From Pseudoscleropodium purum (taxonomy: Eukaryota > Streptophyta > Bryopsida > Hypnales > Brachytheciaceae), in NCBI GenBank assembly GCA_963969395.1, contig OZ017800.1, forward strand, positions 15,284,479 to 15,348,478: a stretch of 64,000 nt of DNA, given 5' to 3'. Both the position numbers and the translations under genes were made by a program. How positions within the stretch are numbered: position 1 is the first letter of the stretch; the number at the start of each line of letters is the position of its first letter. Below, piece by piece: positions 1,480 through 49,650 of the stretch. The notes beneath the pieces were generated by a model. It saw only the letters and a program-made list of their open reading frames with translations. It had not been told where the DNA came from and ran no database searches.

Positions 1480-3095
1480 TCACTTGTCCGGATTCTCCGT
1501 TCCGGCTGAGTGGCCATAGTTGAGCGCGGTCTGCTCCCTTGGAAGAATTTGAACTTGTTTGTAAACCGGTCTTGGCTGTATGGGCTTCGGACACTGCTCC
1601 TCCTGATGCCCATACTCTTGGCAATTCTGGCACGGAAGAGTTCGCGGAGCACCCTGCCCTGGTCCCCTGTTAGGACACGAGTTGGCATAATGTCCCGGTT
1701 CTCCACAGCCATAACATAGCACCACTTGTCTATCCGGGTAACCAAGGGCTCGCACGGGCTGCTGCATTACCAACCCCTGACTCGGTCCAGGTAAAAAGTT
1801 CCGGTTCAACATGTTGGACCGGGAAGGAATCGTGATCCCTTTTCCTCTACCATAGGTCGGCTGCACTTGGTAGATCTCCTCTTCTTCCTCGTTTGCTACG
1901 GTGTAGTAGATCTCTTCTTCCGGATACACATAGTGAACTTGCTTCTGGGCAACTCGCTGGCATTCACTTGGATAGTGACCCGGTTCTCCACATCTTCCGC
2001 ACCAGACATTGGATCGAGAAGTCGGAACGATCCGTCTCGGTTTCCGGTTCTCAGCCATGTTGACCTTGATAGCCTCCAAAGACTCTTGGATGTTCTTCAT
2101 CATCTTCTTGGAATCCGTATCCTCCGTCTTCACTTTCACAACCCGTTTCTCTCTCGGACCCTTCGACTTGTGCGAACGTCGGGGAGGTGAAACACTTTGT
2201 TCCTCATCCGAGCTCGATGAATCCGGATCGGAAACTTCCGTTCCAAAACTCTCGGAACTGCTGTCCGAATCGGAAACCTTCTTACGATGCTTCAACTTCT
2301 GGTCGCTCTTCTTGTTCTTCCCCTTTTCTTGCTTCTCGCTCCTTCTCAAGGACTTCCGAAGTGACTGAGCGGAATTCTCGTAATTAGCCGCAGCATCCAT
2401 GGCATCTCTAAGTGTCCTAGGTCACGTCTGACGAATCAGAAATCCCATCGACTCGGGTAATCCGGCAACGTACCACTCCACCTGCAGACTAGGAGCAATC
2501 TCAGTGGTCAGCTTCTGGATCAGCGCCTTCACCCTCTGGCCATACTTCCGCACGGATTCGGATGATTTCATCGTTAGTGTACTGAGCCGTCCCAAGGCTC
2601 TAGCTTCTCCTCCTACCTCCCGGAAAGCTTGCAGGAAATCCGTTCTCAACTGATCCCAGTTATTCCGGATCGGATCGGATCGGAAATATCCTGATACCAT
2701 TTAAGAGCTCCTCCCTTGAGCAATCCTTGGAAGATTCTTCGCTGGGCCGCCTCATTCTCCTGGTTGGCGAGTGTAGTGGATTCAAACTCGCACAGCCAGT
2801 CATCTGCATCTTGGCTTCCGTCACCCTTAAAACGCTTGTATCTCAATCGAGTCATGACGTCTTCGTCTTCTAGGAACGGATCTTTTCGTTCCGGTTCCGG
2901 ATCTAGATCGGAAACTGTAAGCGTACGACCAAATCTCGGATTCTCGCTTTCTCCCGCGGATGCAGACACAAAAATCGGACGGTTAACCGGATCTTGCAGA
3001 TCCGGTTCACTATGATCCGGTTCAGGCGATTCTTCCGATCGTTCTCTTCTTCTCAATCGCTCGGACGTTCTCGTATTCCTTGTTCCGCTTCTCAT
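1480..3095 (-). pseudogene. gag polyprotein, broken
   Basis: Gag starts at an ATG at 3095 with an Arg/Glu-rich leader, then a retrotransposon capsid domain (DDWLCEFE, GGALKWYQDI, further on LRTDFLQAF). A run of three GATCC units near 2680 shifts the frame; the homology continues in another frame. A TGA at 2422-2424 interrupts that frame, after which it resumes as MDAAANYENSAQ. A basic/acidic linker follows, then three CX2CX4HX4C zinc knuckles: CGRCGEPGHYPSEC, CYGCGEPGHYANSC, CQNCQEYGHQEEQC. Gag ends at TGA 1480-1482, in the same frame as pol, so either this stop is natural and suppressed or gag-pol was one frame. Capsid and nucleocapsid would package element RNA. Confidence 0.9.
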
Positions 3096-3212
3096 GAGTT
3101 AGTTTCCAGATTCAGCCGGAAAACAAAACCCAATCTGAAAAATGAAAACGCGGAAAAGACGAACTATTGACTCAGCTTCTTTTGTACCGCAATAAAGCCG
3201 ATAGCTTTAGAA

Positions 3213-3230
3213 TCCCCGGCAACGGCGCCA
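3213..3230 (-). other. Primer-binding site, tRNA-Asp
   Basis: The minus strand reads TGGCGCCGTTGCCGGGGA, fully complementary to the 18-nt 3' end (with CCA) of plant tRNA-Asp as I know it. It lies 11 nt downstream of the LTR terminus CTGCGACA. tRNA-Asp priming is known for plant Athila/Tat-type gypsy elements. Confidence 0.93.
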
Positions 3231-3241
3231 GATTTTTGTCA

Positions 3242-3446
3242 TGTCGCAGGACAAGGTAGGTCAATTCCCCATTATACTCACAAAAATCGCTCTAGAGTAT
3301 AACTAAGTGACTCTAAAGATCGAACCCACGAGATCCTGTGAAGTATCTAGCTCTATTAAGCAGTTAAGCTTAGTCAGTATCCCAATCTTACTTTCCGGTC
3401 CTAGATCTAGAACCAGAAATACCACCACACCGGATAACTATAGACC
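3242..3446 (-). repeat. Truncated 5' LTR (last 205 bp)
   Basis: On the plus strand this begins TGTCGCAGGACAAGGTAGG and runs with high identity alongside the corresponding ends at 24148, 35710, 55611 and 60629, up to about 3446 where similarity stops abruptly. It ties the gag-pol body to the 3.3-kb LTR family. Confidence 0.93.
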
Positions 3447-8424: not shown

Positions 8425-11085
8425 TTCCTCATTTACCAGAAAACAAATGCTTTGGCTTTTTGTTGTAATGAACATGATCTGCCTCTCCCTTCCTAGCATC
8501 CAAATTCCTTTGCCTCACAGCATTCTTACCTATCTGCATCTCCTTTACCTTCTGGGCACTGTCCTTGAATCCTTCATCTGCACCAAGTCGTGTACAATAT
8601 TGCTTAGGACAGATGGTGGTATTGACCAGAGATTCACCAGCTCTTCGCTACTAATACGAATTGACGCCCAAGTGCCCAAATTGCTTCTGGCAACTACATA
8701 GTTTTAATGAAACTATGATGAGCAAAAACTCCTCCAGAATAATCAGAAATATGGGAGTCCATACAAGGTTCAACATCCTGTGAAAGAAAACTGTACCTAG
8801 AAGTGCTTCTTTATGTGGCCAAGATAATGAACGAGTTTTAGAACAAATTCTCTTCTGAGCTTGCTCATCCACTTCCATGTCATCACCACCTGCCCCTTCA
8901 GATCAATCCCGCTTCCCGCTTCTTGTTGCAGCAGTAGATCTACTCCTTGCTCGATTCACTGCAGCATTCGGGTCCAAGCCCAAGCTTGAAAAATGTCTGC
9001 CCATCCTACTAGTATTGAATTGTCGTTCTACATCATGCCTCCTAGGCATCGTAGGTTTATTATCAGCATTTTTCTTTTTCGCCTCTCCTTCCGTCGAATG
9101 GCAGCGAGAGCCTCTGCTTCCTCAGGTGTTAAGTCCTGTTCAAAGAGAAACCAAAACAGTTTTCAGTATGACACCTTCACCTTCACGCACAAAATCAGAC
9201 TCAAAATAAGGAAATCCTTCGAAAACTGCAAACAAATGGACCTGGTCGCTCATGTCCTCGTCCTCCTCCATTCCCTCTGCTGCTGCGGCACGTTCATCCT
9301 CTACCCTCTCCAATTCATCTAATCTTTGAAGAATGTCGACATCAACAAAGTCAGCAATAATGTGCCCATCCATAATCTCAGGGACGATGTCATCCTTCCA
9401 ATCGGGATCCAACAAGTAATGCTTGTGCATGTTCGCAGAATACACTCCTATCATACCTCACATCCACACAAACGCGCAATCATCAGTCGTTGAAGCCGTA
9501 AGTGAAATCCAAACGCATGCCGTCTCGAAAAAACACCAATGGATGCATTTGGCTTGCAAAAAAATCATGCCAAAATGGAGGTAATCACTATCAAGAAATA
9601 ATTCAGAAACTGACGGACCTGCACCACCACCATTCTCGATCTCAAGATCCTTCTCCAGTTTCCTCTTGTTCTCAGCAGCCTTGGCGTCGAGAACTGCCTG
9701 GGGAATAACAGGAGGACAATCTTTCTGATCCCGGAGTTTTGGCACAGCCACGTGAATTCGATTCAAACAATCGTTGATGTTCTTGGATTTCATCTTCATG
9801 TCCACACGCATCTCCAGCAACTTATCGCATGCAGCATTCTTGACTTCGATAATGCCCTCCTCTGTCATAGTACTCATTGACAACATGCAATTCTCCTCAT
9901 CAGGCGGGGTAACGTCGACGAGACCTGCTCCAATTCTAGCAACTTCTTTCCTTATTTCCTCAATAAGCTTCCTATCCGATTCTGGAAGCGTCTCAAATGG
10001 CTGTAAGTCGGTCTTGTTGCAGGCGATGATCTCTGGTTTGTTGGCGAACAACATTTGGATGGAATGAAATAGCGCTACTTGCTGGGCAATGGTGAAGCCA
10101 CAATTGCCAGACATCAATCATGAAAAGAACTGCAGCTCGGAGATGCGACAGGGCTGTGATGCCCGTCATCTCAATCACGTTAAAGGACGATCCAGAAAAC
10201 CGGGAGTGTCAATCACCTACACAATACGAATGCATTTTTAGCACAAAATGCACTGATGGCATATAAGAAACAATCATTTTGACAACACCCTGAGAAGGAA
10301 ATGCTGGAACTAGAAACGCGTTGTTCAATAAAGTGTGATGAGTTGGCTACCTGCTACCGCATATACTTGTAATCGGTGTGACCTACAAACAGAGACTTCG
10401 TGGTGAACGCATACGGCTGCACATCCACATCAGCACGCGTAATTTTGTTGATGAAACTGCTCTTTCCGACATTGGGAGAGCCACAGATCAAGATAGTTCG
10501 GGTGTTGGATCGATTGACGGTAACCTCGACAAATGCTTGCGGACGTATTCCAGGTACGCCAGACTAGGGCTATTACGTTTCATCACTGTGCACATCCTAC
10601 CCAACGCTGCTTTCTTCAAAATCTTGCACCTGAAAAAGCAAACTCCAATTCAGCCAACCTTGCCCTAAACCCACTAATCGATTGAAAATAACCTCCTCAT
10701 TCTAGAACCGCTGAACATGTCATACAAGAATCTTACTTACAATCCGTAGGTCAAATAACTTGCAAACTATAGGAACAGGAATGCGTACAGACCTAAACCC
10801 TAAAATCGGCAAGAATTGGCAACAGTACCGCTAGATATGTTCCGTGAGTATGTATGATTTACTCAGAGCAAATAGCCCTAAACCCTAAACCCGACAAGCA
10901 CTCGAACTAAATCCCGGAGATATATGCTTCGAGCATCACAGCTACAGAAACTGTAGTGGCACAAGTAGTAACAAACCATTTCCAAACCCTAAAACCGCAA
11001 GAAAAGAATGCAACCCTAACCTCCCCAAATCGTCAGCTGAAAGTCCGAATCTGTAGAGCGAGCCCCCGTACTTAAACAAGCGCAA
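8425..11085 (-). pseudogene. NOG1: NOG1 nucleolar GTP-binding protein, 5'-truncated pseudogene
   Basis: NOG1 is a GTPase of 60S ribosome assembly. Recognisable minus-strand exons are: about 11085-11036 (LFKYGGSLYRF), 10629-10351 ([20 protein letters not shown]-loop [20 protein letters not shown]), 10216-9619 (VIDTPGFLDRP, ITALSHLRAAVLF, CNKTDL, LNRIHVAVPK), 9447-9242 (DWKDDIVPEIMDGH), 9135-about 8830 (RRHDVERQFNTSRMGR), and about 8590-8427 (GFKDSAQKV, DARKGEAD, KPKHLFSGK). Splice sites are GT-AG. It is dead: TAG at 10354-10356 where the family has an aromatic residue, a roughly 10-base loss after DRP near 10178-10190, a one-base loss before SGNCGFT near 10113, a frame break in the 9135 exon, and TGA at 8903-8905. 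The N-terminal ~100 residues are missing. Retained introns rule out a processed copy. Confidence 0.93.
10790..11005. repeat. Scattered telomere-type CCCTAAA motifs in NOG1 intron
   Basis: CCTAAACCCTAAA occurs near 10792-10804, CCCTAAACCCTAAACCC near 10875-10892, and CCCTAAA again near 10986. Telo-box motifs are common in promoters and first introns of plant ribosome-related genes, which fits a NOG1 origin. Confidence 0.6.
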
Positions 11086-14198: not shown

Positions 14199-15707
14199 CT
14201 ATAATAAGCAGGAATTGCTGATCAACTGCTCGAATTCGGATTTGAGTTTCTCATAGTCCTCCGCGCGTGCAGCCGTCAAAGCTGAATTCCATGCTGGAAT
14301 GTCATCGGAACACTCGCTCCAGAACATTTGGAGTTTACCGAAGTCAGTCTTTTCCAAGTCTCGCAACATCAAGTGCTTCTCATGAAATCTAAGTGAAAAT
14401 ATAGTGTGGACAAGCGCTTCAAGATCATCCCGCCCCTCGGCCACAACTTCGTAAGCACCAGTCGCCAACAGTTTTAAAATCCTCTCCGACGCATACAACA
14501 CTCCTCCACTGAAGGCAGAAGCTTGATTCTTAGTGACAGCATAGCCCCAATCCAGGATGTAGAGCATATCACTCTTTTTCGACTTCCCTTCGGCAATCAT
14601 TATGTTGTGTGGCCTCACATCGCGATTAATGATCCCGAGCTCATGCGCTTTCTGAAGAACATCAACGAGACCTGGCACCATCCGCGACCAACTGGACAAG
14701 TGCTTACGCGACAACGGTCTCCCAACTGGATGGATTTTCAGGGATTTGCCATCTTCAAACCACCCCAACACCTTGGGCACTCCCTCTACGTCTTTCAAGG
14801 CAGCAAGCATTTGCTGGTCATTCAAAAGAGGGCCTATATGAGAGAAAGGAACTTTAGCCGCATATTCTCTGCCATCCTCGCCTTTCACACAGAAAACAGA
14901 ACTTGTTGCTCCAGCTCCCAGAAAACAAATTAGCTCGTGCTGGACACCGAGCGCAGTTAGTGATGGCGGCAAAAGCCCAAGGTCGATGAAACTGCTCTTC
15001 AGTAGGGCACACAGAGACCCACGCACATCGTTTAACTCAGGGCCAACCCCATATTGAAATTTATTTCTGTCGGTTCTGCTGACCCTAAACCATTGCACCT
15101 TCTCCAGATCCGTAACACCCACTATTACGGAGGATCTAAATCCTCGTAAGGTTTCCAATATCTTCTCCCCGTAATTTATAGCTTTTCCAACTCTTAGATC
15201 GTTATTGTACAAACCATCCTTACCTGACTTGAGCTCAAGTATCGCCCCAGTAGTCAAAGCAACTGGAGCAACCCCCGGTAATTGAGGTCGTTTGTAAATA
15301 ACAGCATCTGGCTTTATAATGCCTCCACAAACAAATGACCAATTTCCTGTAAATACCAGGTTAAATGGACATGGAGCATGGTACTTCAGTTCCTTCACAA
15401 GCTCTTTGAAGTCATCTTCAACAGACTCCCTCGCCCGGCTCATCCAACTTCCTATCGGCCACATTTCCTCTGCCTCTTTGTCAATCAGAGGAGGCGGCAA
15501 GTCGAGCCTCATAGTGCTGGCTTTTACTAGACGACCCTTCTCTGGAAAGCTGGTTGACGCCATCGAAGAGGAACTTGAAGTAAACTGTAAGAGCAGCTCA
15601 CGAACTTCCTGCTTTAACTCTCTCACCAGTTCAACAATGGCCGGTGACGCATCACCTGGTTCAACATAAAACAACGATGAGACGCATTCTTGGCCGTAGT
15701 TTTGCAA
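14199..15707 (-). CDS. Nuclease-fold plus protein kinase fusion (Crinkler/CR-like), main exon
   Basis: One long open stretch of about 500 codons. After a Glu-rich helix and a Ser tract comes a PD-(D/E)XK-type domain: KPDAVIYK, then ILELKSG (D...ExK), then GKAINYGEKIL and VIVGVTDLEKVQ. A eukaryotic-type kinase domain follows: glycine loop FLGAGATSSV, lysine in YAAKVPF, catalytic loop IINRDVRPHN (N replaces H of HRD), and LDWGYAV (DWG for DFG). All catalytic residues are present. The pairing is known from Crinkler-type proteins of oomycetes, fungi and some plants; its role here is unknown. The frame is open up to 15707 without an ATG there; the first internal ATG is at 15563. An acceptor at 15655/15656 could join an upstream exon, but its phase does not fit the exon at 15861-16075. 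The paralog at 31333-33786 supports a multi-exon gene. Confidence 0.8.
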   Translation of the reverse strand: MQNYGQECVSSLFYVEPGDASPAIVELVRELKQEVRELLLQFTSSSSSMASTSFPEKGRLVKASTMRLDLPPPLIDKEAEEMWPIGSWMSRARESVEDDFKELVKELKYHAPCPFNLVFTGNWSFVCGGIIKPDAVIYKRPQLPGVAPVALTTGAILELKSGKDGLYNNDLRVGKAINYGEKILETLRGFRSSVIVGVTDLEKVQWFRVSRTDRNKFQYGVGPELNDVRGSLCALLKSSFIDLGLLPPSLTALGVQHELICFLGAGATSSVFCVKGEDGREYAAKVPFSHIGPLLNDQQMLAALKDVEGVPKVLGWFEDGKSLKIHPVGRPLSRKHLSSWSRMVPGLVDVLQKAHELGIINRDVRPHNIMIAEGKSKKSDMLYILDWGYAVTKNQASAFSGGVLYASERILKLLATGAYEVVAEGRDDLEALVHTIFSLRFHEKHLMLRDLEKTDFGKLQMFWSECSDDIPAWNSALTAARAEDYEKLKSEFEQLISNSCLL

Positions 15708-18040: not shown

Positions 18041-18563
18041 TTTCAGTGTTACAAGTAATTAGCGGAGTTCCTCCACAGGCCACTCCTCTGCCCAACGCCC
18101 AACTGCGGGCAACCAGGCCAAATCCGCCTCACCCTGCTGAAGACACTATCTTCCCGCCTTCTTGACCTCCCACACCACCTCACTCATCTTTGTGCTCTTC
18201 GTCTGTGCAACCACCTCCAAGATCCGTTGTAAAGCCCTACAGCAACCCAGCAGAATAGAACAGTATCACAAAACAGCTAGCATTGGGTTGTGTCGCAGCT
18301 TAGAATTTTGATTTTCTTAGTATACACCAAAATAGGAACGGAAACTAGTCATTAGCTAACCGGATCCGATTAGGTGGGGAAGGAAAACTCAGAATTAGCA
18401 CGGAACATGAAGTAGTGGGCTTCTTGGATCTAATCCGGTCAGGAGTAACTAACGACGGAAACGAAATGTAACACGGATTAGGTCTAGGACCGGATGATGA
18501 TGATGAACCGGATTATGATGGTAAACCGGATTCATGATGACAAACCGGAAAGGGTCCAGGGAC

Positions 18564-18570
18564 TATATAA
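18564..18570 (+). promoter_or_regulatory. TATA box, promoter 1 of LTR 1
   Basis: TATATAA in the context GGGACTATATAAGGAGG, about 270 bp into the LTR and about 180 bp upstream of the LTR-ORF ATG. It is conserved in LTR 4 at 47653-47659 and, as TATAAAAG, in LTR 5. It is placed to drive the LTR-encoded protein. Confidence 0.7.
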
Positions 18571-18745
18571 GGAGGAGCTTTCACTGTTGCACCCCCTTTT
18601 AGAAACTTGACCTTGAGCGCGCGGTTGAGTTTTTGTCGTTTGTGCGTCTGTGCGTTTGTATTTTGTCTGTTTTGCTTCCGGTTGAGATCGGAGAGAGGAA
18701 GTGAGGAACGGGACGTGCGGCTAGGAGAGAGTGAGGTAATTTCGA

Positions 18746-20410
18746 GTGGGAATGCCTCCGCTACGTAGGTCTAGACCAGCAAGTCCCTCTGCAAGTGAGG
18801 TGAAGCTCCGGAAAGTTATTCCGGTTATTCCCTCCACAGAGCCGGAAAAGTTTGAACTCATGGATGATCTCAAATCCATGGATTGCGTAGGGTTTGCCGA
18901 GAAACCCTGGGGATTTAGGGAGGAGAGAATGGTCAAGGAGCTCCTCGGAAAGTTGTCCAACCAGTTTGACAACACCGTGAGAGGAACTCCCGTCAGCTGG
19001 AACGAGGGGATGTGGAGAACGGTTTACGGTTTCCGGGCAGGAGGTTTGGGGATGGCGAGCCGGAAGGATGAGTTTGTCCGAGGGAAGTTCAAGGGAGCCG
19101 TCAACCCGAAGGACGGATACGCGGTCGAGGATTGCTTGGATGACCGACACCGTCGGCTCCTGCAATTCCTGGTTCCGGTTCTTCACCCGGAGAAGCCGAC
19201 CAGGGTGACGATCACCCTCGGCAACACCATTTTCGGTGCCCTCAGTGGTACCCGGAAAGTGGACTGGGCACGGATCATTTCCGATCTCGTGGCCCAGCTG
19301 GTTAGTAGGGTTGGGAAGAAAAGGGCCACTCGAGTGTGCCCTTATCTCTTCCACCTCTATCGGGAGAACCAAGTCCTCACCGACATGGAGGAGAGGGCGT
19401 GGAAGACGCAGGAAGTGTTCCTAAAGTATGGGGAGTCGGAGACGGATGACGAGGCCGAATCCGATTCCGGGTCAGACCGGGAGTCCAGCGAGGAAGAGGA
19501 GGAGCCGATGCCGCCGATCAAGCGACAGAAGCTGACGCCTCCATACAAGCATGGGACGCCTCCCGGTCAAGACAAACCGGCCCCGGAGGAGAAACTGGAA
19601 GCCGAGAAGACCAATTCCGGGGGAGATCCGAATATGCAAGATCCGTTCAACGGTCTGATCAACGTCCTCTGCAACATCAGGGCGGATTGGGAGGTCAAGC
19701 ATAGGACGCTTGCGGCAATCGGCAAGTTGGTGGGTGCGGCACCGGACAGCAAATTGGCGGAACAAGTGGCGGAGTGCATCACGAATCTAGAAGAGACCCG
19801 GAAGCAAGAAGCAGAGATCCGCCGGTTGCAGGAGGAGGTGGATAAACTGAAGGCAACTCTTTTTGCCTATCAGGAAGACGTGACGGCCGCTCGGGAGATG
19901 GCGGAAGAGACTCGGAAGATAGCCGAGCAGATCAAGGCGGTCCTGGGAGAGACCGGAACGGCCGCTGCCAAAGCGAAGCTCTTCGACGAGAAGATCCACG
20001 AAGAGAAGAAACTATCCGGTTCCCGGATGGTCCGGATTCTCGCCGACTTCGCTGAGCAGGTGGAGACGGCAATGGTGGAGGGGCGGAAGGCTGCGGACCG
20101 GATCGAGGAGAGCAGCCGGAAGCTGACGGGAGCGACGTGCGACAAAGGTATTCATCTTTCTGACATCTCACTACCGGATCTCTTTCCGGACGCGACCATT
20201 CAGAAGGATAGGAAGGATTGGACTCCTGAGTCCAAGAAGTCTGCACGGACTGGGACTTCGGGCACGAGACCGGATATCACCATCGACCTGGAGTCTCCAC
20301 CCGGACCGAATCCTACGGAGGGGGAACGGGTCCGGAATTTGAGTGAAGTCTTTGAGGAGCTAGTCCCGGAGGTCGGAAGCCCGACGATAGGATCTCGAGT
20401 TGTAGGGTAG
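18746..20410 (+). CDS. LTR-encoded 554-residue protein (copy 1, intact)
   Basis: I do not recognise the family with confidence. The N-terminal ~228 residues form a compact domain with DEFVRGKFKGAVNPKDGYAV, VTITLGNTIFGAL and VDWARIISDLVAQLV; this order loosely recalls the 'putative plant transposon protein' domain of some plant gypsy elements. Then come an acidic stretch (about 229-255, EEEEE), a basic NLS-like PPIKRQK (about 257-263), a Pro-rich linker, a long coiled coil (about 337-421, EIRRLQEEVDKLKATL), and a tail with DITIDLESPP (about 510-518) resembling a SUMO-interaction motif. There is no zinc knuckle, protease or polymerase. The start is the first ATG after promoter 1. It lies wholly within a single LTR, upstream of the second TATA box. 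Confidence 0.85.
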   Translation: MGMPPLRRSRPASPSASEVKLRKVIPVIPSTEPEKFELMDDLKSMDCVGFAEKPWGFREERMVKELLGKLSNQFDNTVRGTPVSWNEGMWRTVYGFRAGGLGMASRKDEFVRGKFKGAVNPKDGYAVEDCLDDRHRRLLQFLVPVLHPEKPTRVTITLGNTIFGALSGTRKVDWARIISDLVAQLVSRVGKKRATRVCPYLFHLYRENQVLTDMEERAWKTQEVFLKYGESETDDEAESDSGSDRESSEEEEEPMPPIKRQKLTPPYKHGTPPGQDKPAPEEKLEAEKTNSGGDPNMQDPFNGLINVLCNIRADWEVKHRTLAAIGKLVGAAPDSKLAEQVAECITNLEETRKQEAEIRRLQEEVDKLKATLFAYQEDVTAAREMAEETRKIAEQIKAVLGETGTAAAKAKLFDEKIHEEKKLSGSRMVRILADFAEQVETAMVEGRKAADRIEESSRKLTGATCDKGIHLSDISLPDLFPDATIQKDRKDWTPESKKSARTGTSGTRPDITIDLESPPGPNPTEGERVRNLSEVFEELVPEVGSPTIGSRVVG

Positions 20411-20556
20411 ATAGAATTTTGGATTTCAGTTAGGAGTAGGAGCGGATCCGGATCCGGCTCAATAGTATTAGGTTAGACCGGAAGTTAGATTAGGGTGGCG
20501 GCGGACCTCTACGGGTTTTCCGCTCCTTTTTGTGGTTTTAGGGTTTTTACCCTTTG

Positions 20557-20565
20557 TATATAAAT
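20557..20565 (+). promoter_or_regulatory. TATA box, putative promoter 2 of LTR 1
   Basis: TATATAAAT lies about 145 bp after the LTR-ORF stop, just after a TTTTAGGGTTTTTACCC motif, and is conserved at 49651-49659 in LTR 4 and in the minus-strand copies. It would start an RNA with about 1 kb of R-U5 leader leading to the PBS in a full element, making it the likely genomic-RNA promoter. This is inferred from position only. Confidence 0.55.
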
Positions 20566-21592
20566 CGGTTCCTGAGATGGGAACTGAGAGTTGTTCATTT
20601 TGCAAACTTCTTGTACTTTTCTATTCTCTTCATTGTGTGTCTCTCTCCAGCGCGACAGGATTGTATGATGTGGAGTTAGGATAGTACGAGTTGGTTTGCA
20701 AGTGATTTCTCCCCTTGGTGTTTCTTTTCCGATCCTAGGTGCATGTGAGTAGGTATCGAAGAGTTGGGAGTGAACTTAGTTCCTCAGCACGTCTAGAGTT
20801 TGAGATTCCGGGTGAGAAAGCCGTTGTTAGGCTAGGCGGGTAGGGAGGGATTCCTTAGCTGCGCTAGAACTCCCGGGTGGGAAATCCGGTTGAGTGTCCG
20901 ATCTCCTATGAGGTCTCACCACCCGTATGGGTAACGGAAGAACTTTAGTTGATGTTGGAACGAACGGGTGCACTTGTAACCACCTGTCTTCGCACGGATC
21001 GGAAGTAGCATCAAGGTCGTTGTAGTACGAGAAGGTCGAGTGTGGGGTCTTTGTGTGACCTACGACCCGGATTGTTATCTGGGTTGTTGTGAAGGACCAA
21101 ACCGGATCCGGATTAGCTTAGGAGTTTAGAAGGTAGGACAGTGGGTCTTCAGCCACTATAAGTCACGGAAGGAGTGGTGGGCCTACCACTCTCAAAATTA
21201 AGCGGCGACCCCTCTGATGGTGAAACAGAGGCAAAACTAAACCGGATAGGATTACGGGTACAGGATGACCATCCGGACCGGATTGGTCAGGACGGATTTC
21301 CAGGATCGGAAGTTGTGAGATCCTGGGATTTGGGTATTTGTACGGACTGGATAGTTAGTAGGACCGGAAGAAGGAATAATCCGGTCTGTAGTTATCCGGT
21401 GTGGTGGTATTTCTGGTTGTAGATCTAGGCTCGGAAAGTAAGATTTGGATACTGACTGAGCTTAACTGCTTAATAGAGCTAGATACTTCACAGGATCTCG
21501 TGGGTTCGATCTTTAGAGTCACTTAGTTATACTCTAGAGCGATTTTTGTGAGTATAATGGGGAATTGACTTGCCTTGTGCTGCGACAGGTTG

Positions 21593-24147: not shown

Positions 24148-27100
24148 TGTCGCAGCACAGGGCAGGTCAATTCCCCATGATACTCACAAAAATCGCTCTA
24201 GAGTATAACTAAGTGACTCTAAAGATCGAACCCACGAGATCCTGTGAAGTATCTAGCTCTATTAAGCAGTTAAGCTCAGTCAGTATCCAAATCTTACTTT
24301 CCGAGCCTAGATCTACAACCAGAAATACCACCACACCGGATAACTACAGACCGGATTACTCCTTCTTCCGGTCCTACATACTATCCGGTCCGTACAAATA
24401 CCCAAATCCCAGGATCTCACAACTTCCGATCCTGGAAATCCGTCCTGACCAATCCGGTCCGGATGGTCATCCTGTACCCGTAATCCTATCCGGTTTAGTT
24501 TTGCCTCTGTTTCACCATCAGAGGGGTCGCCGCTTAATTTTGAGAGTGGTAGGCCCACCACTCCTTCCGTGACTTATAGTGGCTGAAGACCCACTGTCCT
24601 ACCTTCTAAACTCCTAAGCTAATCCGGATCCGGTTTGGTCCTTCACAACAACCCAGATAACAATCCGGGTCGTAGGTCACACAAAGACCCCACACTCGAC
24701 CTTCTCGTACTACAACGACCTTGATGCTACTTCCGATCCGTGCGAAGACAGGTGGTTACAAGTGCACCCGTTCGTTCCAACATCAACTAAAGTTCTTCCG
24801 TTACCCATACGGGTGGTGAGACCTCATAGGAGATCGGACACTCAACCGGATTTCCCACCCGGGAGTTCTAGCGCAGCTAAGGAATCCCTCCCTACCCGCC
24901 TAGCCTAACAACGGCTTTCTCACCCGGAATCTCAAACTCTAGACGTGCTGAGGAACTAAGTTCACTCCCAACTCTTTGGTACCTACTCACATGCACCTAG
25001 GATCGGAAAATAAACACCAAGGGGAGAAATCACTTGCAAACCAACTCGTACTATCCTAACTCCACATCATACAATCCTGTCGCGCTGGAGAGAGATACAC
25101 AATGAAGAGAATAGAAAAGTACAAGAAGTTTGCAAAATGAACAACTCCCAATTCCCATCTCAGGAACCGATTTATATACAAAGGGTAAAAACCCTAAAAC
25201 CACAAAAAGGAGCGGAAAACCCGTAGGGGTCCGCCGCCACCCTAATCTAATTTTCCGGTCTAACCTAATACTGTTGAGCCGGATCCGGATCCGGATCCGC
25301 TCCTACTCCTAACTGAAATCCAAAATCCTATCTACCCTACAACTCTAGATCCTATTGTCGGGCTTCTGATCTTGGGAACTAGCTCCTCGAAGACTTCACT
25401 CAAATTTCGGACCCGTTCCCCCTCCGTAGGATTCGGTCCAGGTGGAGACTCCAGGTCGATGGTGATATCCGGTCTCGTGCCCGGAGTCCCAGTCCGTGCA
25501 GACTTCTTGGACTCAGGGGTCCAATCCTTCCTATCCTTCGCAATGGTCGCGTCCGGAAAGAGGTCCGGTAGCGAGATGTCCGAAAGATGAATACCTTTGT
25601 CGCACGTTGCTCTAGTCATCTTCCGGCTGCTTTGCTCAATCCGGTCCGCAGCCTTCCGCCCCTCCACCATTGCCGTCTCCACCTGCTCAGCGAAGTCGGC
25701 GAGAATCCGGACCATCCGGGAACCGGATAGTTTCTTCTCTTCGTGGATCTTCTCTTCGAAGAGCTTCGCTTTGGCGGCGGCCGTTCCGGTCTCTCCCAGG
25801 ACCGCCTTGATCTGCTTGGCTATCTTCCGAGTCTCCTTCGCCATCTCCCGGGCGGCCGTCACGTCTTCCTGATAGGCAAAAAGAATGGCCTTCAGTTTAT
25901 CCACCTCCTCCTGCAACCGGCGGATCTCTGCTTCCTGCTTCCGGGTCTCTTCCGGATTGGTGATGCACTCCGCCACCTGTTCCGCCAATTTGCTATCCGG
26001 TGCCGCACCCACCAACTTGCCGATTGCCGCAAGCGTCCTGTGCTTGACCTCCCAATCCGCCCTGATGTTGCAGAGGACGTTGATAAGACCGTTGAATGGG
26101 TCTTGCATTTCCGGGTCTCCCCCGGAAACGGTCTTCTCGGCTTCCGGTTTCTCTTCCGGGGCCGGTCTGTCTTGACCGGGAGGCGTCCCGCGCTTGTATG
26201 GAGGCGTCAACTTCTGTCGCTTGATCGGCGGCATCGGCTCCTCCTCTTCCTCGCTGGACTCCCGGTCTGACCCGGAATCGGATTCCGCCTCGTCATCCGT
26301 CTCCGACTCCCCATACTTCAGGAGCACTTCCTACGTCTTCCACACCCTCTCCTCCATGTCGGTGAGGACTTGGTTCTCCCGATAGAGGTGGAAGAAATAA
26401 GGGCACACTCGAGTGGCCCTTTTCTTCCCAACCCTACTAACCAGCTGGGCCACGAGATCGGAAATGATCCGTGCCCAGTCCACTTTCCGGGTACCACTGA
26501 GGGCACCGAAAATGGTGTTGCCGAGGGTGATTGTCACCCTGGTCGGCTTCTCCGGGTGAAGGACCGGAACCAGGAATTGCAGGAGCCGACGGTGTCGGTC
26601 ATCCAAGCAATCCTCAACCGCGTATCCGTCCTTCGGGTTGACGGCTCCCTTGAACTTCCCTCGGACAAACTCATCCTTCCGGCTCGCCATCCCCAAACCT
26701 CCTGCCCGTAAACCGTAAACCGCTCTCCACATTCCCTCGTTCCAGCTGACGGGAGTTCCTCTCACGGTGTTGTCAAACTGGTTGGCCAGCTTTCCGAGGA
26801 GCTCCTTGACCATTCTCTCCTCCCTAAAACCCCAAGGTTTCTCGGCAAATCCTACGCAATCCATGGATTTGAGATCATCCATGAGTTCAGACTTTTCCGG
26901 CTCTGTGGAGGGAATAACCGGAATAACTTTCCGGAGCTTCACCTCACCTGCAGAGGGACTCGCTGGTCTAGACCTACGTAGCGGAGGCATTCCCACTCCA
27001 ATCTACCTCACTCTCTCCTAGCCGCACGTTCTGTTCCTCACGTCCTCTCTCCGATCTCAACCGGAATCAAAACAAACAAAACACAAACGTACAAACGCCA

Positions 27101-27444
27101 AAAACTCAACTGCGCGTGCTCAAGGTCGAGTTTCTAAAAGGGGTGCAACAGTGAAAGCTCCTCCTTATATAGTCCTTGGACCCTTTCCGGTTTGTCATCA
27201 TGAATCCGGTTTACCATCATTATCCGGTTCATCATCATAATCCGGTCCTAGACCTAATCCGTGTTGCATTCCGTTTCCGTCGTTAGTTACTCCTGACCGG
27301 ATTAGATCCAAGAGGCCCACTACTTCACGTTCCGTGCTAATTTTGAGTTTTCCTTCCCCACCTAATCGGATCCGGTTCCCTAATGGCTAGTTTCCGTTCC
27401 TATTTTGGTGTATACTAAGAAAATCAAAATTTTAAGCTGCGACA
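24148..27444 (-). mobile_element. LTR 2, no matching target duplication
   Basis: A complete 3297-bp unit on the minus strand with intact TGTCGCAG/CTGCGACA ends. The flanks are GGCGT and GGAGG, not a target duplication. No PBS is seen at the 24147 side and no PPT at the 27445 side, so it is not an element end; it is more likely a solo LTR formed by recombination between different elements or with a rearranged flank. Confidence 0.9.
25332..26996 (-). pseudogene. LTR-encoded protein (copy 2), single internal TAG
   Basis: The full 554-codon frame is present without indels from the ATG at 26996 to the stop at 25332. One TAG at 26331-26333 lies right after ERVWKT, exactly between the N-terminal domain and the acidic/coiled-coil half. 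The same codon is TAG in LTR 6 and CAG (Gln) in LTRs 1, 4 and 5. The rest of the frame, including NLS-like, coiled-coil and DITIDLESPP motifs, is preserved. Confidence 0.85.
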
Positions 27445-27790
27445 GGAGGCGACGTTGAAATTCTTCCGTTTCACATGCCCGAATGTGGTTGCAAAGTACA
27501 AGTCATGGACAATTTGATAGGAATAAGCCTCGAGGGGCTTGGCTTCAAAGTTTCTAAATAAATGAAGAGCGTACTTTGCTATGCCCATTTCAAGTGCATG
27601 GCCTTGTAGATACTTTGAAATGCTAATAGTATGGTGTGGAGGCGACGTTGAAATTCTTCTGTTTGCCATGCCCAAATGTGGTTGCAAAGTACAAGTCATG
27701 GACAATTTGATAGGAATAAGCCTCGAGGGGTTTGGCTTCAAAGTTTCTAAATAAATGAAGAGCGTACTTTGCTATGCCCATTTCAAGTCC
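27445..27790. repeat. Tandem direct duplication, period 193 bp
   Basis: GGAGGCGACGTTGAAATTCT at 27445 recurs at 27638. Both units contain GGTTGCAAAGTACAAGTCAT, CTTCAAAGTTTCTAAATAAA and CTATGCCCATTTCAAGT. The first unit abuts the end of LTR 2; the second runs into the MULE-like gene. On the minus strand both read EAKPLEAYSYQIVHDLYFAT. Confidence 0.9.
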
Positions 27791-29735
27791 CGTTTTTTGG
27801 TAAAAAAAACACTGCCTCGGTTTTGCTCCACCCACATCTGTACACTTTTTGCATCAAAAGTGTGCAGCATATACCTCTCCCGTGCCACCTTCGTAGCCAA
27901 ATTCCTGACATCTCGCTCATGTAGGAACATGTCCCTCGAAATGCCACTGCCCGCGTTGAGGGAGTCCTTCACAATTTGAATGTGTTTCGACATGATCTGT
28001 GGAACACTGTGTCCATCCCGGAGAAGTTTCAAGACGAATTCTTTAATTTCTTCTGACAAGTGCCATGTGAATGCACTTCGGTCTCTTGCATTGCTCAATC
28101 CATGGCATTGAATACCGGCTTCATTCACATGGTCACTTTGGTAGAGTGTTATCTCCGTGACATGTGGAAGCAAATATAGTGTTTTCACACTGAATGACGC
28201 TAAGCAACCCCGCTTCAAACCACCTCCCCATTGTTTCAACGAATCTCTTGGCTTACGAAGGGCAGCAGGTCTTTGTGGACTCTTCTTGGTCCCACTTGGC
28301 TTTGTTGTCTGTAAATCATTGTTTTCCTGTTCATTCACGGTGATCAACACAGGGACATTGTTACTTGTGCTAAACTCAATAGCCTGCTTAGAGGCATCTC
28401 GTTCAGTCCTACTGCTTTCCAGTGTAGTTGCACATTGTGCAAGAGGCAGCCGTGCTTCCCCAACATTGTTGGTCAATAATGCCACGTCCAAGTTGTCGTA
28501 GTGGGGAGGGGGCGGGCCATTCAAGTCAAGTTCCAAGAAGGCAGTCGGTAGTGTTATGGGGGTCTTTTTTGACGCCTTAGGACGCCTGCACACAACCTTT
28601 TTTGTTTTCTTTTGGAGCTTGATGGCACTTGAAGCCTGCCATCGCAATACTCTGGATTCAACTTCGGTAAGTGGGAGCTGAGATGATTGAGCATTGTTAG
28701 CTGGTAAATTCAAGTCTGTACTCAATCCTCGAGGTGTCTTGGGCTTGTCACTTAAAGGAATAGCGGCCGGATCCATGGATAGTAATGTAGTTTTAGGGGC
28801 ACTTGGAATTGCAGCATTCCGGCGCTAGCGTAACTGATTCCGGTGCTTAGCCAGCAGTGCAGTGTTTTCTCCTGCAGCAGATGCCCCAACCATGACAGTG
28901 TTTCGAGATGTCCTGCAACCGCTTTCCATGCTGAGGCGACGAACACTGTCTGCAATTTCTCCCACGCCAAGTTCAATGTCACCCGACGGCATTGGAAGCT
29001 TCTTTGTTGGAAGCTTCTTTGTGGCACGCGTCCGCTTGGGCTTGGAAGCACCCTCTGCCTCGTTCCCTTTTCTTGACGTCTTCTTAGATCTTGTTTTTTT
29101 CTGTTTTGGTGGCTCCACTTCCCCTTCCGTAAGAGGAATCTTCTGTTTTGCTTTGCCTTTTGTCTTCATAGCTCCAACAACAATAGCCTTTGGTCTTTTC
29201 TTCCTAAGCAACATTGAGCTTATTGTCTTTACATTTGTAGAGTGGTCCTGTGGACCAAATTGACAATGGTAGCTGCAAAACCCAAGGTACAGGTGTATAG
29301 TATTTCGAAACACTTGGTAAGTAGGAGAGCAAATGGAGTAAGAGGTGATCGTGGCCCCTAAATGATGTGAACAGAAGATATGCCAGAGTAGAGACTGAAT
29401 GTCCATTGGAAAGTATGAATTTCAACTACAAAGGAGGTAAAAAAAGGAAGAGTTGTGTACCGTGTAACCTCATTTGCAGTAGTTTTAGTTGCAAAGTATT
29501 TTTCTCCATCTTTCATTGGCTTTGTTCGTATTTTCACAAACTTGCTGGTTATATCGCCTTTTGTATTTTCCATGCCCATGATGAAGTCTTGGACCCTATT
29601 GGTGGGGATGAAACATTGTTGTACAACCGCTACCTTCTTAGTGTCCTTCCCTTGTCTTTTGCGTACTTGTCGTGTTTCACGAAGGCACCATAACAAGGAC
29701 TGCACGAAGATGGGCCCATTAGGAGGAAATTGCAC
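27772..29735 (-). pseudogene. MULE/FAR1-like transposase-derived gene, N-terminal part, broken
   Basis: A first exon (frame from 29735, ending near 29464) encodes PIFVQSLLWCLRETRQVRKR and VVQQCFIPTNRVQDF. A second, about 29230-27772, is one frame interrupted by TAG at 28825-28827: first a Lys-rich basic segment, then a linker, then LKRGCLASFSVKTLYLLPHV, SDHVNEAGIQCHG, FTWHLSEEIKEFVLKLL and DAKSVQMWVEQNRGSVFF. The Cys/His spacing recalls FLYWCH/WRKY-GCM1-type DNA-binding domains at the front of MULE transposases. At the 8-T run near 27802-27809 the frame slips one base and the DDE catalytic part is missing, replaced by the 193-bp duplication. Family assignment is tentative; brokenness is clear. 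Confidence 0.5.
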
Positions 29736-31332: not shown

Positions 31333-33786
31333 ATGGACACCGATGGCCAAAGAATGCAAGGGGAGGTCGAGCGAGTACAAGGGGAGGTCGAGCGAGTACA
31401 AGGGCAAATCGAGCGAGTGGAAGGGCAAATCGAGCGAGTGGAAGGGCAAATCGAGTCTGTAAGAGTAAAAGCAGAGAAAGTGGAAGCAGAGATTGGTGAA
31501 GCTTTGAAGGAGAAAGATCTTGCATCCCAAGACGATCTAGCTCGAGTAGGGAAACTGGAAGAGAATCTCTTGGTTCTACGGGATCAGGAAGAGAAATTAT
31601 GGGGACGGGAAAAGCAACTACGGGATCGGGTAAAGCAACTAGGGGATGAGAAAGCGCAGCTACGGATTCAGGTGGCGGAATTGCAAAAGCGAGGTAAGTG
31701 CCAGAGGATCTTGCCGTCTCAAATTAGGGTTTGAAGCTTTTCGTGAGGCGCGAGATCTTTTCGTTGAGGTCCAGAATTGCTATTTGCACTTCCGTAGTTA
31801 ACTGTGTCTCATAGTCCTCTCTGGATATACTCGCCCAATCCATTTTTGCCAACGCCTGCTCTCTGTTTTATTAGGAGAGTTTCGGATATTTGGAAGTCTC
31901 GGTCATGAACTGGACCCCCTTTTACGTAGTGCGGTCTCTTTTCCAAGTATCATTCATATTCTGAACTTTGGTCTTTTGCGAGAGCTAAATACCATCATGA
32001 GTTTCTGGGTTTTCTATCCAGAAACTTATTCTCCCAGCTGTCCCAGCCAAGAAGACATGAGGGAAGATTTTCATTCTTTCGGTCGATGGGAATTTGCAGT
32101 CCTACGTGGATATGCTTGCTCAATCCATCCGTTCGTTGCTCAATTAGTGGATTCTTCAATTTTAGAGTTGTCTGCCATGATTGGGCTTTTTTTCTTCTGC
32201 GTAGAACGTCCTTTTTACCAAGTAGCATTCCATTTAAAACTCGTTAGTCTTGACGGTCTTTTCCAGATGTCATCATGTGGTCTGTAGGTTTTCTATCTAT
32301 ACAGTAACCTTGCCAGCTACCTCAGCCATTTTTCTGTTGCCTTCTCCTGGATTTATACGTACACCATTTCGGACACGGATATGCTGAAATGGTGGTCTTT
32401 CTCAGCTGTGCGCAGCCGCAGATGACTATCTAATGTGTTCGATCATATGGGTCCATTGCAGCAAATCTGAAGGAGCAACCCGAAATGAATGACACTATGC
32501 TACGACGCATGGAACAACTGAGTTTGGAGATGAAAGACCTGAAGTTAAGAATGCACGTACCATCTTCAAGCACCTTTCAAGATAGAGGTAGAATTATAGA
32601 AAATAGCACTGACGATAACTTTTATTTGCGTACTTCTTTGGCATGTGAGGAGGTGGAGGCATTGTGGCCGACGGTTGAGTGGGATAAGACCATGAAGATG
32701 ACGCCAGAGAAGAGGTTCAAAGAACTGGTGAAACATTTGATCGATAGTGATTCACTACCCTGGAAGATAAAATTTACAGGAAATATTAGATCTGTTTGTG
32801 GCCCTGATTTCAAGCCGGATGTTCTCATCTACAAAAAAGCTGCACCAAACCACCATGGGAGACCAGTCCCCATATCGACTGCGGTGATACTTGAGCTTCA
32901 CTCAGGCTCTGAAAATTACAATAATGTGTATAATCTTGGGAAAGCTGCACATTATGGAGAAAAGATGCTGGAGACCTTAGGAGACTTCAGGTCCTGCGTA
33001 CTGGTAGGCGTCACAGATTTGGAGAAGGTGCAATTCTTCAAGGTCATCAGAGAGCAAAAGGGTCAGTTTAGGTATGCAATTCATCATGAGTTGACCAACG
33101 TTCGTGAGGTCTTGTGTGCCCTATTGAAGAGCAGTCCGTGCGACCTTTTCCTAGAGCTCCCTTTGCTAGAAATGTCCGGGGTCCGGTATGAAACAGTAGA
33201 TTATCTTGGGTGTGGAGCTACAAGTAACGTTGTGTTGGTCAAAGATGTTGGTGGCAGATCCTATGCCGCCAAAATTCCTCACTCTACAAAGAGCTTGCAA
33301 ACTGATCATAGTGTGCTGAGTAAGTTGCAAGGTGTTAATGGGGTGCCGCAGATGTTCGGATGGTTTGATGATGGCAAGTCCCTGAAAATCTCTCTAGTAG
33401 GACGGAAGTTGAATTTCAAGAGTATCTCTAGTTGGTCGGATATGGTGCCCGGACTAGTGGATGTCCTTCGAGAAGCGCATGACCTTGCGGTCATCAATCG
33501 TGACGTGCGACCTGAGAACATTATGAGTGCCGAAGGCAGGCTGTACATCCTAGATTGGGGTTATGCTGTTGCAAAAGGTGAACCTTGTGCATTCAGTGGA
33601 GGAGTCACGTACGCCTCGGACAGGATTTTAGGTCTGTTAGAGAGTGGTTCTTATGAAGTCCTGGCCGAGGAGAAAGATGATCTTGAAGCCCTCGTTCATA
33701 GTATATTTGCGTTGAGATACAAGTCATACTCCAATGAATTACATGGTATTGATCGAATGCGCTTTGGCGACCTTCGAGTGTTTTGA
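31333..33786 (+). CDS. Nuclease-fold plus kinase fusion, two exons, C-terminally truncated
   Basis: Exons 31333-31693 and 32462-33786, donor GAG|GTAAGT, acceptor TTGCAG, phase kept; 561 residues. ATG 31333 (MDTDGQRMQ) is chosen because the coiled coil begins there. Exon 1 is an almost pure coiled coil with five 7-residue repeats. Exon 2 holds the PD-(D/E)XK-like domain (PDVLIYK, Asp ~240; ILELHSG, Glu ~265, His ~267 where the paralog has Lys) and the kinase domain (YLGCGATSNV; YAAKIPH, Lys ~391; INRDVRPEN, Asp ~468; LDWGYAV, Asp ~485). The kinase looks active; the nuclease probably not. The stop TGA 33784-33786 replaces the Trp that the 14199-15707 paralog has in MFW, and homology continues in frame past it. 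The intron is 768 nt. Crinkler-type proteins share this architecture; the function here is unknown. Confidence 0.85.
31356..31460 (+). repeat. 21-bp coding minisatellite, five units
   Basis: Five consecutive units of the type CAAGGGGAGGTCGAGCGAGTA encode the heptads QGEVERV and EGQIERV. The array is in register with the coiled-coil heptad, so length changes would not break the frame. Confidence 0.9.
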
Positions 33787-35709: not shown

Positions 35710-38009
35710 TGTCGCAGCACAGGGTAGGTCAATTCCCCATTATACTCACAAAAATCGCTCTAGAGTATAACTAAGTGACTCTAAAGATCGAACCCACGAG
35801 ATCCTGTGAAGTATCTAGCTCTATTAAGCAGTTAAGCTCAGTCAGTATCCAAATCTTACTTTCCGGTCCTAGATCTAGAACCAGAAATACCACCACACCG
35901 GATAACTACAGACCGGATTACTCCTTCTTCCAGTCCTACTTACTATCCGGTCCAAACAAATACCCAAATCCCAGGATCTCACAACTTCCGATCCTCGAAA
36001 TCCGTCCTGACCAATCCGGTCCGGATGGTCATCCTGTACCCGTAATCCTATCCGGTTTGGTTTTGCCTCTGTTTCACCATCAGAGGGGTCGCCGCTTAAT
36101 TTTGAGAGTGGTAGGCCCACCACTCCTTCCGTGACTTATAGTGGCTGAAGACCCACTGTCCTACCTTCTAAACTCCTAAGCTAATCCGGATCCGGTTTGG
36201 TCCTTCACAACAACCCAGATAACAATCCGGGTCGTAGGTCACACAAAGACCCCACACTTGACCCTCTCGTACTACAACGACCTTGATGCTACTTCCGATC
36301 CGTGCGAAGACAGGTGGTTACAAGTGCACCCGTCCATTCCAACATCAACTAAAGTTCTTCCGTTACCCATACGGGTGGTGAGACCTCACAGGAGATCGGA
36401 CACTCAACCGGATTTCCCACCCGGGAGTTCTAGCGCAGCTAAGGAATCCCTCCCTACCCGCCTAGCCTAACAACGACTTTCTCACCCGGAATCTCAAACT
36501 CTAGACGTGCTGAGAAACTAAGTTCACTCCCAACTCTTTGGTACCTACTCACATGCACCTAGGATCGGAAAAGAAACACCAAGGGGAGAAATCACTTGCA
36601 AACCAACTCGTACTATCCTAACTCCACATCATACAATCCTGTCGCGCTGGAGAGAGATACACAATGAAGAGAATAGAAAAGTACAAGAAGTTTGCAAAAT
36701 GAACAACTCCCAATTCCCATCTCAGGAACCGATTTATATACAAAGGGTAAAAACCCTAAAACCACAAAAAGGAGCGGAAAACCCGTGGGGGTCCGCCGCC
36801 ACCCTAATCTAATTTCCGGTCTAACCTAATACTATTGAGCCGGATCCGGATCCGGATCCGCTCCTACTCCTAACTGAAATCCAAAATCCTATCTACCCTA
36901 CAACTCTAGATCCTATCGTCGGGCTTCCGGCCTCCGAGACTAGCTCCTCGAAGACTTCGCTCAAATTCCGGACCCGTTCCCCCTCAGCAGGATTCGGTCC
37001 GGGTGGAGACTCCAGGTCGATGGTGATATCCGGTCTCGTGCCCGGAGTCCCAGTCCGTGCAGACTTCTTGGACTCAGGAGTCCAATCCTTCCTATCCTTC
37101 GCCATCGTTGCATCCGGAAAGAGGTCCGGTAGAGAGATGTCCGAAAGGTGAATACCTTTGTCGCACGTCGCTCCAGTCAGCTTCCGGCTGCTCTCCTCGA
37201 TCCGGTCCGCAGCCTTCCGCCCCTCCACCATTGCCGTCTCCACCTGCTCAGCGAAGTCGGCGAGAATCCGGACCATCCGGGAACCGGATAGTTTCTTCTC
37301 TTCGTGGATCTTCTCGTCGAAGAGCTTCGCTTTGGCAGCGGCCGTTCCGGTCTCTCCCAGGACCGCCTTGATCTGCTCGGCTATCTTCCGAGTCTCTTCC
37401 GCCATCTCCCGGGCGGCCGTCACGTCTTCCTGATAGGCAAAAAGAGTTGACTTCAGTTTATCCACCTCCTCCTGCAACCGGCGGATCTCTGCTTCCTGCT
37501 TCCGGGTCTCTTCCGGATTCGTGATGCACTCCGCCACTTGTTCCGCCAATTTGCTGTCCGGTGCCGCACCCACCAACTTGCCGATTGCCGCAAGCGTCCT
37601 GTGCTTGACCTCCCTCTCTCCGATCTCAACCGGAAGCAAAACAGACAAAACACAAACGTCCAGACGCACAAACTCCAAAAACTCAACCGCGCGCTCTCAA
37701 GGTCGAGTTTCTAAAAGGGGGTGCAACAGTGAAAGCTCCTCCTTATATAGTCCCTGGACCCTTTCCGGTTTGTCATCATGAATCCGGTTCATCATCATCA
37801 TCCGGTCCTAGACCTAATCCGTGTTGCATTCCGTTTCCGTCGTTAGTTACTCCTGACCGGATTAGATCCAAGAAGCCCACTACTTCACGTTCCGTGCTAA
37901 TTCTGAGTTTTCCTTCCCCACCTAATCGGATCCGGTTAGCTAATGACTAGTTTCCGTTCCTATTTGGGTGTATACTAAGAAAATCAAAATTCTAAGCTGC
38001 GACATATGT
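35705..38009 (-). mobile_element. Solo LTR 3, internally deleted, target duplication TATGT
   Basis: The unit 35710-38004 is 2295 bp, flanked by TATGT at 35705-35709 and 38005-38009. Relative to the full LTR about 1.0 kb is missing at a clean junction near 37612, fusing the 5' leader of the LTR-ORF to the middle of the frame. Both termini, promoter 1 and the promoter 2 region are retained. The target duplication means it inserted as part of an element; the deletion may have come before or after. Confidence 0.93.
36893..37678 (-). pseudogene. LTR-encoded protein (copy 3), N-terminal domain deleted
   Basis: The remaining frame begins with about 26 residues of translated leader (MEFVRLDVCVLSVLLPVEIG) fused to VKHRTLAAIGKLVG and continues through the intact coiled coil, DITIDLESPP and the normal C-terminus. 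The whole N-terminal domain, acidic run and basic patch are absent. It might still be translated as a coiled-coil-only protein. Confidence 0.85.
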
Positions 38010-45720: not shown

Positions 45721-45771
45721 ATGTGAAGTTCCTTCAGCATTTTGCAAAGTGAGAGCCCGTTGGACCCATAC

Positions 45772-47379: not shown

Positions 47380-47652
47380 TGTCGCAGCTTAGAATTTTGA
47401 TTTTCTTAGTATACACCAAAATAGGAACGGAAACTAGTCATTAGCTAACCGGATCCGATTAGGTGGGGAAGGAAAACTCAGAATTAGCACGGAACATGAA
47501 GTAGTGGGCTTCTTGGATCTAATCCGGTCAGGAGTAACTAACGACGGAAACGAAATGTAACACGGATTAGGTCTAGGACCGGATGATGATGATGAACCGG
47601 ATTATGATGGTAAACCGGATTCATGATGACAAACCGGAAAGGGTCCAGGGAC

Positions 47653-47659
47653 TATATAA
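47653..47659 (+). promoter_or_regulatory. TATA box, promoter 1 of LTR 4
   Basis: TATATAA in the same context as in LTR 1, about 176 bp before the LTR-ORF ATG. Confidence 0.65.
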
Positions 47660-47834
47660 GGAGGAGCTTTCACTGTTGCACCCCCTTTTAGAAACTTGAC
47701 CTTGAGCGCGCGGTTGAGTTTTTGTCGTTTGTGCGTCTGTGCGTTTGTGTTTTGTCTGTTTTGCTTCCGGTTGAGATCGGAGAGAGGAAGTGAGGAACGG
47801 GACGTGCGGCTAGGAGAGAGTGAGGTAGTTTCGA

Positions 47835-49499: not shown

Positions 49500-49650
49500 A
49501 TAGGATTTTAATTTCAGTTAGGGGTAGGAGCGGATCCGGATCCGGATCCGGCTCAACAGTATTAGGTTAGACCGGAAGTTAGATTAGGGTGGCGGCGGAC
49601 CTCTACGGGTTTTCCGCTCCTTTTTGTGCTTTTAGGGTTTTTACCCTTTG

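Follow-up and report, generated by a model that had tools for sequence, protein, structure and literature searches.

Can a long terminal repeat (LTR) of a plant retrotransposon carry a protein-coding gene of its own, and what might such a gene do there? The question is raised by a 3.3-kb unit at positions 18291-21587 (+ strand) of a 64,000-nucleotide stretch, hereafter the window, from the moss Pseudoscleropodium purum (assembly GCA_963969395.1, contig OZ017800.1, positions 15,284,479 to 15,348,478). An earlier note, made from the letters alone, described this unit as a single LTR encoding a 554-residue protein. That length had been counted from a GTG at 18746; the frame itself stands, and comprises 552 codons from the ATG at 18752 to the stop ending at 20410 (+). 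The analysis presented here shows that the unit is the true LTR of a Ty3/gypsy-type retrotransposon, and that its frame is found in both LTRs of full elements and is under purifying selection.

The unit opens with TGTCGCAG and closes with CTGCGACA, and the sequence GGTTG is duplicated at its two sides. The TG...CA termini and 8-bp inverted ends previously described were confirmed on this copy, and together with 5-bp target duplications they characterize the unit. Five full-length copies are present in the window, the other four being 95–97% identical to 18291-21587, and these are accompanied by one internally deleted copy and a 205-bp LTR end. Four perfect 5-bp duplications had been claimed, and all four were recovered: they flank the solo LTRs at 18291-21587 (GGTTG), 47380-50682 (+; GTAGG) and 55611-58915 (− strand; CTCTC), as well as the copy at 35710-38004 (−; TATGT), which carries an internal deletion of LTR positions of about 432-1398. 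The copy at 24148-27444 (−) is without a matching duplication. The description of the copies as single LTRs lacking a purine tract holds except for 60629-63941 (−), which is the 3′ LTR of an element extending past the right end of the window, and not a solo LTR, because the purine tract GATGAGGAAGGGGTAA (63942-63957, −, read from the sequence) adjoins and precedes it on its strand. A candidate for the start of the partnering 5′ LTR, locus L077, was rejected since the expected start is not there. Each of the six copies holds or once held one long frame, as had been proposed: three frames are open (at 18752, 47841-49499 and 56794), those of 24148-27444 and 60629-63941 are interrupted, and that of 35710-38004 is partly deleted.

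The 205-bp fragment (3242-3446, −) is the terminal part of a 5′ LTR belonging to this family, with 95.6% identity to LTR positions 3093-3297, and is cut off by unrelated sequence. Reading along the minus strand from 3242, one passes from this LTR end through an 11-nt spacer to the primer-binding site TGGCGCCGTTGCCGGGGAT (3212-3230, −, read from the sequence), and then through gag and a protease-like stretch into the beginning of reverse transcriptase (RT). The gag part, with CCHC knuckles (2400-1480), and the protease-like part (1470-367) together occupy 367-2400 (−); the latter gave no Pfam hit and was assigned by its position and a motif. The primer-binding site is probably of the tRNA-Asp type of plant Athila/Tat elements.

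Full elements were sought in the genome, which amounts to 313,191,705 bases in 52 contigs. The LTR end, primer-binding site and gag were joined in all 40 scored places, drawn from 1,097 first-look candidates. When 30 loci were cut out, 23 showed the LTR unbroken from about position 1600 to 3297 up to the locus edge, three proved to be frame-less deletion variants (L019, L031 and L037), and four were truncated or rearranged (L009, L011, L014 and L028). In L011 (1-1705) the final 455 bp of the 5′ LTR end form three consecutive copies ahead of the primer-binding site, and in L014 (1-1705) the LTR end lies directly downstream of an inverted LTR piece (positions 1268-1). Tandem elements sharing an LTR were also observed (L024/L025 on C46; C1:327296/336512), the joints of LTR, primer-binding site and gag being spaced 9216 bp apart, the length of one LTR plus the internal part.

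Five elements were compared LTR against LTR. Three pairs (L039/L040, L041/L042 and L043/L044) are flanked by GACGT, CCGGG and GTTGC, each duplicated; in every one of them the 5′ LTR is followed by a primer-binding site and the 3′ LTR is preceded by a purine tract. Two of these three carry an intact frame in both LTRs, and the third has a broken frame in its 3′ LTR. Two further pairs, reached via frame searches (L064/L063 and L066/L065), have the flanks GGGTC and ACTGT and frames intact on both sides. Four of the five elements thus carry an intact frame in both LTRs, the 3′ copy of the fifth being broken, which settles the question posed in the earlier note of whether both LTRs of a full element bear the frame. 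The two LTRs differ at 3/3305, 26/3304, 55/3281, 3/3304 and 7/3304 aligned bases in the five elements.

The internal part of L039/L040 measures 5912 bp by coordinates, and its pol piece contains RVT_1, RNase H, H2C2 and integrase core (rve) domains; the gene order of the element is gag, protease, RT, RNase H, integrase. The pol stop lies only 36 bp from the 3′ LTR (L040), so that no gene is accommodated between pol and the purine tract, and the extra gene resides inside the LTR. In scans of this one element up to an E-value of 1, no chromodomain was seen at the pol end, and the 829-residue pol piece together with the directly adjoining pol end gave no second (archaeal-type) RNase H.

Of 38 distinct full-length LTRs, 22 are single LTRs with perfect duplications and seven follow a purine tract; the remainder precede a primer-binding site (four), show the start of the spacer only (two) or have unmatched flanks (three). 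Many of them were found via the protein, and the classes are accordingly no census. Frames are intact in 12 of the 17 LTR copies picked by DNA alone. In two protein searches, 85 of 90 and 71 of 78 scored matches are without an internal stop, the matches scored being the top ones among 2,341 and 2,550 first-look candidates, respectively.

The predicted protein has a helical N-terminal domain (about residues 20-225), followed by an acidic stretch, a KRQK cluster, a coiled coil and a disordered tail. It could be assigned to no family or fold, and searches revealed none of the structural or enzymatic domains known from retrotransposons, in agreement with the earlier description of a protein that is neither structural nor enzymatic. 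It contains no membrane-like stretch (the highest mean hydropathy over 19 residues is 0.77) and is therefore not envelope-like. From the acidic stretch and the KRQK cluster behind it we infer a nuclear protein. Full-length relatives share 33–72% identity with it, and none were found in a viral contig collection or in a separate genome contig collection. For the queries P0020, P0033 and P0012, the scored genome matches comprise only frames of about equal identity to the query, which indicates that there is no diverged second LTR family among the scored hits. One candidate for such a family, L072 with a 582-residue frame, was rejected because it is a copy of the family described here, truncated at LTR position 2110.

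The frame evolves under constraint. The median pairwise ratio of nonsynonymous to synonymous substitution rates (dN/dS; Nei-Gojobori) is 0.22 over the 31 intact among 38 distinct in-register frames, and 0.23 over all 38; it is not near 1, the value that the earlier note had named as counting against its proposal. Decay of CpG sites could mimic a low dN/dS, and variants in 41 full LTRs were therefore scaled to the mutation spectrum of the non-coding LTR. The resulting omega-like ratio is 0.69 for singletons, 0.52 for variants in two to three copies and 0.31 for variants in at least four copies, and stop variants number five, two and zero in the same classes. The frame is under purifying selection, and the widely inherited variants are the most constrained, as expected of a gene on which the transposing lineage depends.

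Two TATA boxes are present in all 41 aligned full LTRs, one before and one after the frame. TATA box 1, the candidate promoter of the frame, is located at 18563-18569 (+; LTR position 274) and reads TATAAA or TATATA in 41 of 41 copies. TATA box 2, the candidate promoter of the genomic RNA, is located at 20557-20564 (+; LTR position 2267) and reads TATATAAA in every one of the 41.

Frame-less LTRs, which read as deletion derivatives, bear on the roles of the two boxes. In the element L037/L070, LTR positions of about 260-2032, comprising TATA box 1 with the greater part of the frame, are gone from both LTRs. Between the two LTRs, 2 of 1508 aligned bases differ and 36 gap columns are accounted for by two 18-bp units; they enclose an internal part of the usual 5912 bp by coordinates. 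The sole TATATAA[AG] within them is TATA box 2, and this young element transposed with that box alone. Neither TATA box 1 nor the frame is thus required in cis, and both can be provided in trans.

A second deletion, joining LTR positions 421 and 2033, was detected at 21 places in the genome when up to two mismatches were allowed, 15 of them exact. The junction leaves both TATA boxes in place in the two loci read. This frame-less variant has multiplied, its 21 places being distributed over C41, C42, C43, C44 and others, and it reads as a non-autonomous subfamily. For the frame-less element at L019, the expected 3′ LTR was not found at L069. Another frame-less element (C49:10243907-10253193) possesses a primer-binding site and a purine tract; its flanks, GAACT and TACGG, are unmatched, which argues against a simple insertion.

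A short motif recurs through the element. All 2,080 hexamers, with reverse complements merged, were ranked against shuffled sequence, using codon-preserving shuffles for the pol piece. ACCGGA and ATCCGG rank second and first in LTR positions 2121-3297, first and third in LTR positions 1-461, and second and third in the pol piece, compared with ranks of 594 to 1795 in three control stretches of the window. For the core CCGGA, the pol piece contains 42 sites where 13.7 are expected and the frame 29 where 15.0 are expected, counts that were reached in 0 of 1000 shuffles in each case. Outside the family, ACCGGA has a background density of 0.14 per kb (41,690 bases of the window) or 0.16 per kb (49,399 bases of flanking sequence). 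The longer form ACCGGAT has 21 occurrences in one LTR and 3,241 internal bases taken together, but is absent from those 41,690 window bases and occurs three times in the 49,399 flank bases. The non-coding LTR has 22 CCGG sites, which read AACCGGAT when oriented. Just upstream of TATA box 1 lies an 18-bp tandem array with an ACCGGAT-type motif (18489-18549, +; 3.3 copies according to Tandem Repeats Finder), and the number of CCGGA sites from LTR position 151 to this box ranges from 2 to 6 across 41 copies. Four frame-less LTRs keep a CCGGA density of 15.5–20.7 per kb.

How might these features work together? We give a probability of about 0.5 to a reading in which the 552-codon frame, likely transcribed from its own promoter, encodes a predicted nuclear protein, which would work in trans on the DNA of its own family, either activating it or counteracting its silencing. 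TATA box 1 would drive the mRNA from intact LTRs, solo LTRs included. The protein would then enter the nucleus and act on family members, which the dispersed motif would mark. TATA box 2 would start the genomic RNA, and the frame would consequently lie in U3 (the unique 3′ region of the LTR), be copied into both LTRs at every reverse transcription, and remain present after recombination has reduced an element to a solo LTR. TATA box 1 and the frame could in this manner constitute a separate U3 cassette working in trans. A more elaborate form of this scheme is possible and is offered tentatively. According to it, a gene for a DNA-binding anti-silencing factor or activator would have moved with its own promoter into U3 to become a self-propagating LTR gene, its ACCGGAT target filling the body of the element including pol; insertions would double the gene, intact solo LTRs would keep relatives awake in trans, and frame-less copies would ride along.

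A number of observations weigh against the proposed activator or anti-silencing role. The protein is without a known DNA-binding domain, and the KRQK cluster is present in near relatives only, being absent from the P0020 and P0033 groups. The spectrum-corrected omega, when pooled, is 0.47–0.53, clearly above the simple estimate of 0.22. The flanks of L037/L070, CATAG and CACAG, agree at four of five bases rather than at all five. Motif enrichment is uneven as well: in the frame ACCGGA ranks 8 and ATCCGG only 87, and in the coding sequence of gag plus protease, where the motif is weaker, ACCGGA ranks 42 and ATCCGG 13. In these two parts the CCGGA excess is weak (reached in 23 and 72 of 1000 shuffles), and the shuffle counts for the motif there span 17 to 83 of 1000. 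Conservation among copies is only slightly higher for the motif hexamers than for other CG-containing hexamers (0.919 versus 0.880). The ACCGGA/ATCCGG motif may serve something else.

Among the alternatives, the frame could encode an accessory protein of the particle or of nuclear import, the motif being unrelated to it. The coiled coil and the acidic stretch would suit such a function, and additional open reading frames of plant elements have been suggested to aid nuclear steps (PMC7264820; here and below, the cited papers are represented by excerpts). The protein, however, offers no membrane stretch for an envelope-like role, and the enrichment of the motif would be left without a reason; we regard this explanation as rather doubtful. 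The protein might also be a self-repressor that limits the copy number of the family through the same motif. A further product of the U3 frame of mouse mammary tumour virus (MMTV) is Naf, which regulates transcription negatively (PMC9412291), and the spread of frame-less elements that retain the motif would speak for a repressor too. A gene that only lowers transposition is not, however, expected to be under purifying selection in transposing lineages unless selection acts at the level of the host, and a repressor seems unlikely. In a third arrangement TATA box 1, which is upstream of everything, would start the genomic RNA, and the frame would be the first gene of a long leader. This is improbable given that L037/L070 moved without TATA box 1, and that TATA box 2 is identical in all 41 copies. 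That the frame is merely an unselected open stretch in young copies, which LTR pairs as close as 3/3305 differences would leave open anyway and protein searches would favour by scoring the best frames first, is very improbable in the face of a dN/dS of 0.22, widely shared variants free of stops and full-length relatives at 33–72% identity.

The window contains several other features. Two frames that are alike by eye and have a similar N-terminal region, at 14199-15707 (−; 502 residues) and 32485-33786 (+; 433 residues), each gave a protein-kinase match just under Pfam's cut-off. The frame at 9458-10117 (−) matches NOG1, a nucleolar GTP-binding protein, above Pfam's cut-off and is likely an exon or gene fragment. 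Two adjacent frames, at 27772-28776 (−; 334 residues) and 28825-29406 (−; 193 residues), have no Pfam match up to an E-value of 0.1. Direct repeats of at least 300 bp that are 99% identical (45768-46067 and 47062-47361) immediately precede the solo LTR at 47380 and enclose a third copy at 65%, and a tandem repeat of 179 bp in 2.9 copies (58983-59496) begins just past the end of the LTR copy at 55611-58915. AAACCCT repeats are also present, and are presumably of the plant telomere type; like the probable tRNA-Asp type of the primer-binding site, they point to a plant host.

The placement of a gene inside the LTR alters the genetics of the element, since the gene is doubled at each insertion and survives recombination to a solo LTR. 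Its product could be supplied in trans long after gag and pol are lost, and solo LTRs, usually seen as leftover regulatory DNA, would form a reservoir of intact genes. The motif that recurs throughout the LTR and pol offers a cheap way of testing how a retroelement recognises its own DNA in the face of host silencing; for VANC of plant DNA transposons the answer has been given (PMC5735166).

The body of the element is that of an ordinary gypsy-type retrotransposon, and it is the placement of the gene that is unusual. Non-chromovirus gypsy lineages have LTRs of up to about 5 kb, OTA elements carry extra open reading frames, and the polyproteins of Phygy and Selgy fill the internal part (PMC6317226). 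The moss element resembles all three in its gag-pol order without a chromodomain, and resembles Phygy and Selgy in a polyprotein that spans nearly the whole internal part. It differs from them, as they are described in the excerpt of PMC6317226, in having a gene inside the LTR, none being mentioned there for OTA, Phygy or Selgy. Among the listed matches to titles and the starts of abstracts in open-licence PubMed Central, no protein gene inside a plant LTR is described. Additional genes of plant LTR elements are located in the internal region (PMC7264820). The closest of these in character is gene23 of Grande, an additional gene that has a promoter of its own and encodes a nuclear protein (PMC7264820), to which the moss frame compares with its candidate promoter and predicted nuclear product. 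The excerpt places gene23 and the other additional frames between pol and the 3′ LTR, gene23 in antisense, whereas the frame described here is in sense orientation, inside the LTR and after the purine tract.

The nearest parallel in layout is MMTV, a betaretrovirus in which the U3 protein gene sag/naf is present in both LTRs and two promoters are found within the LTR (PMC9412291). In the moss element a gene likewise lies in both LTRs, probably within U3, and two TATA boxes are candidate promoters. The host group and the element are unrelated to those of MMTV, and here the second TATA box follows the frame. For strategy, the parallel is VANC of the VANDAL DNA transposons, whose target motif accumulates by tandem repeats within its own transposon and whose binding has been demonstrated (PMC5735166). 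The moss element similarly has accumulated a short motif, with tandem repeats that vary in number; unlike the VANC system, which belongs to a DNA transposon, binding is here a prediction, and the motif is frequent in coding DNA too. The mechanism proposed for the moss element joins the MMTV-like layout of U3 to the VANC-like strategy, a comparison of how these systems work rather than of their descent.

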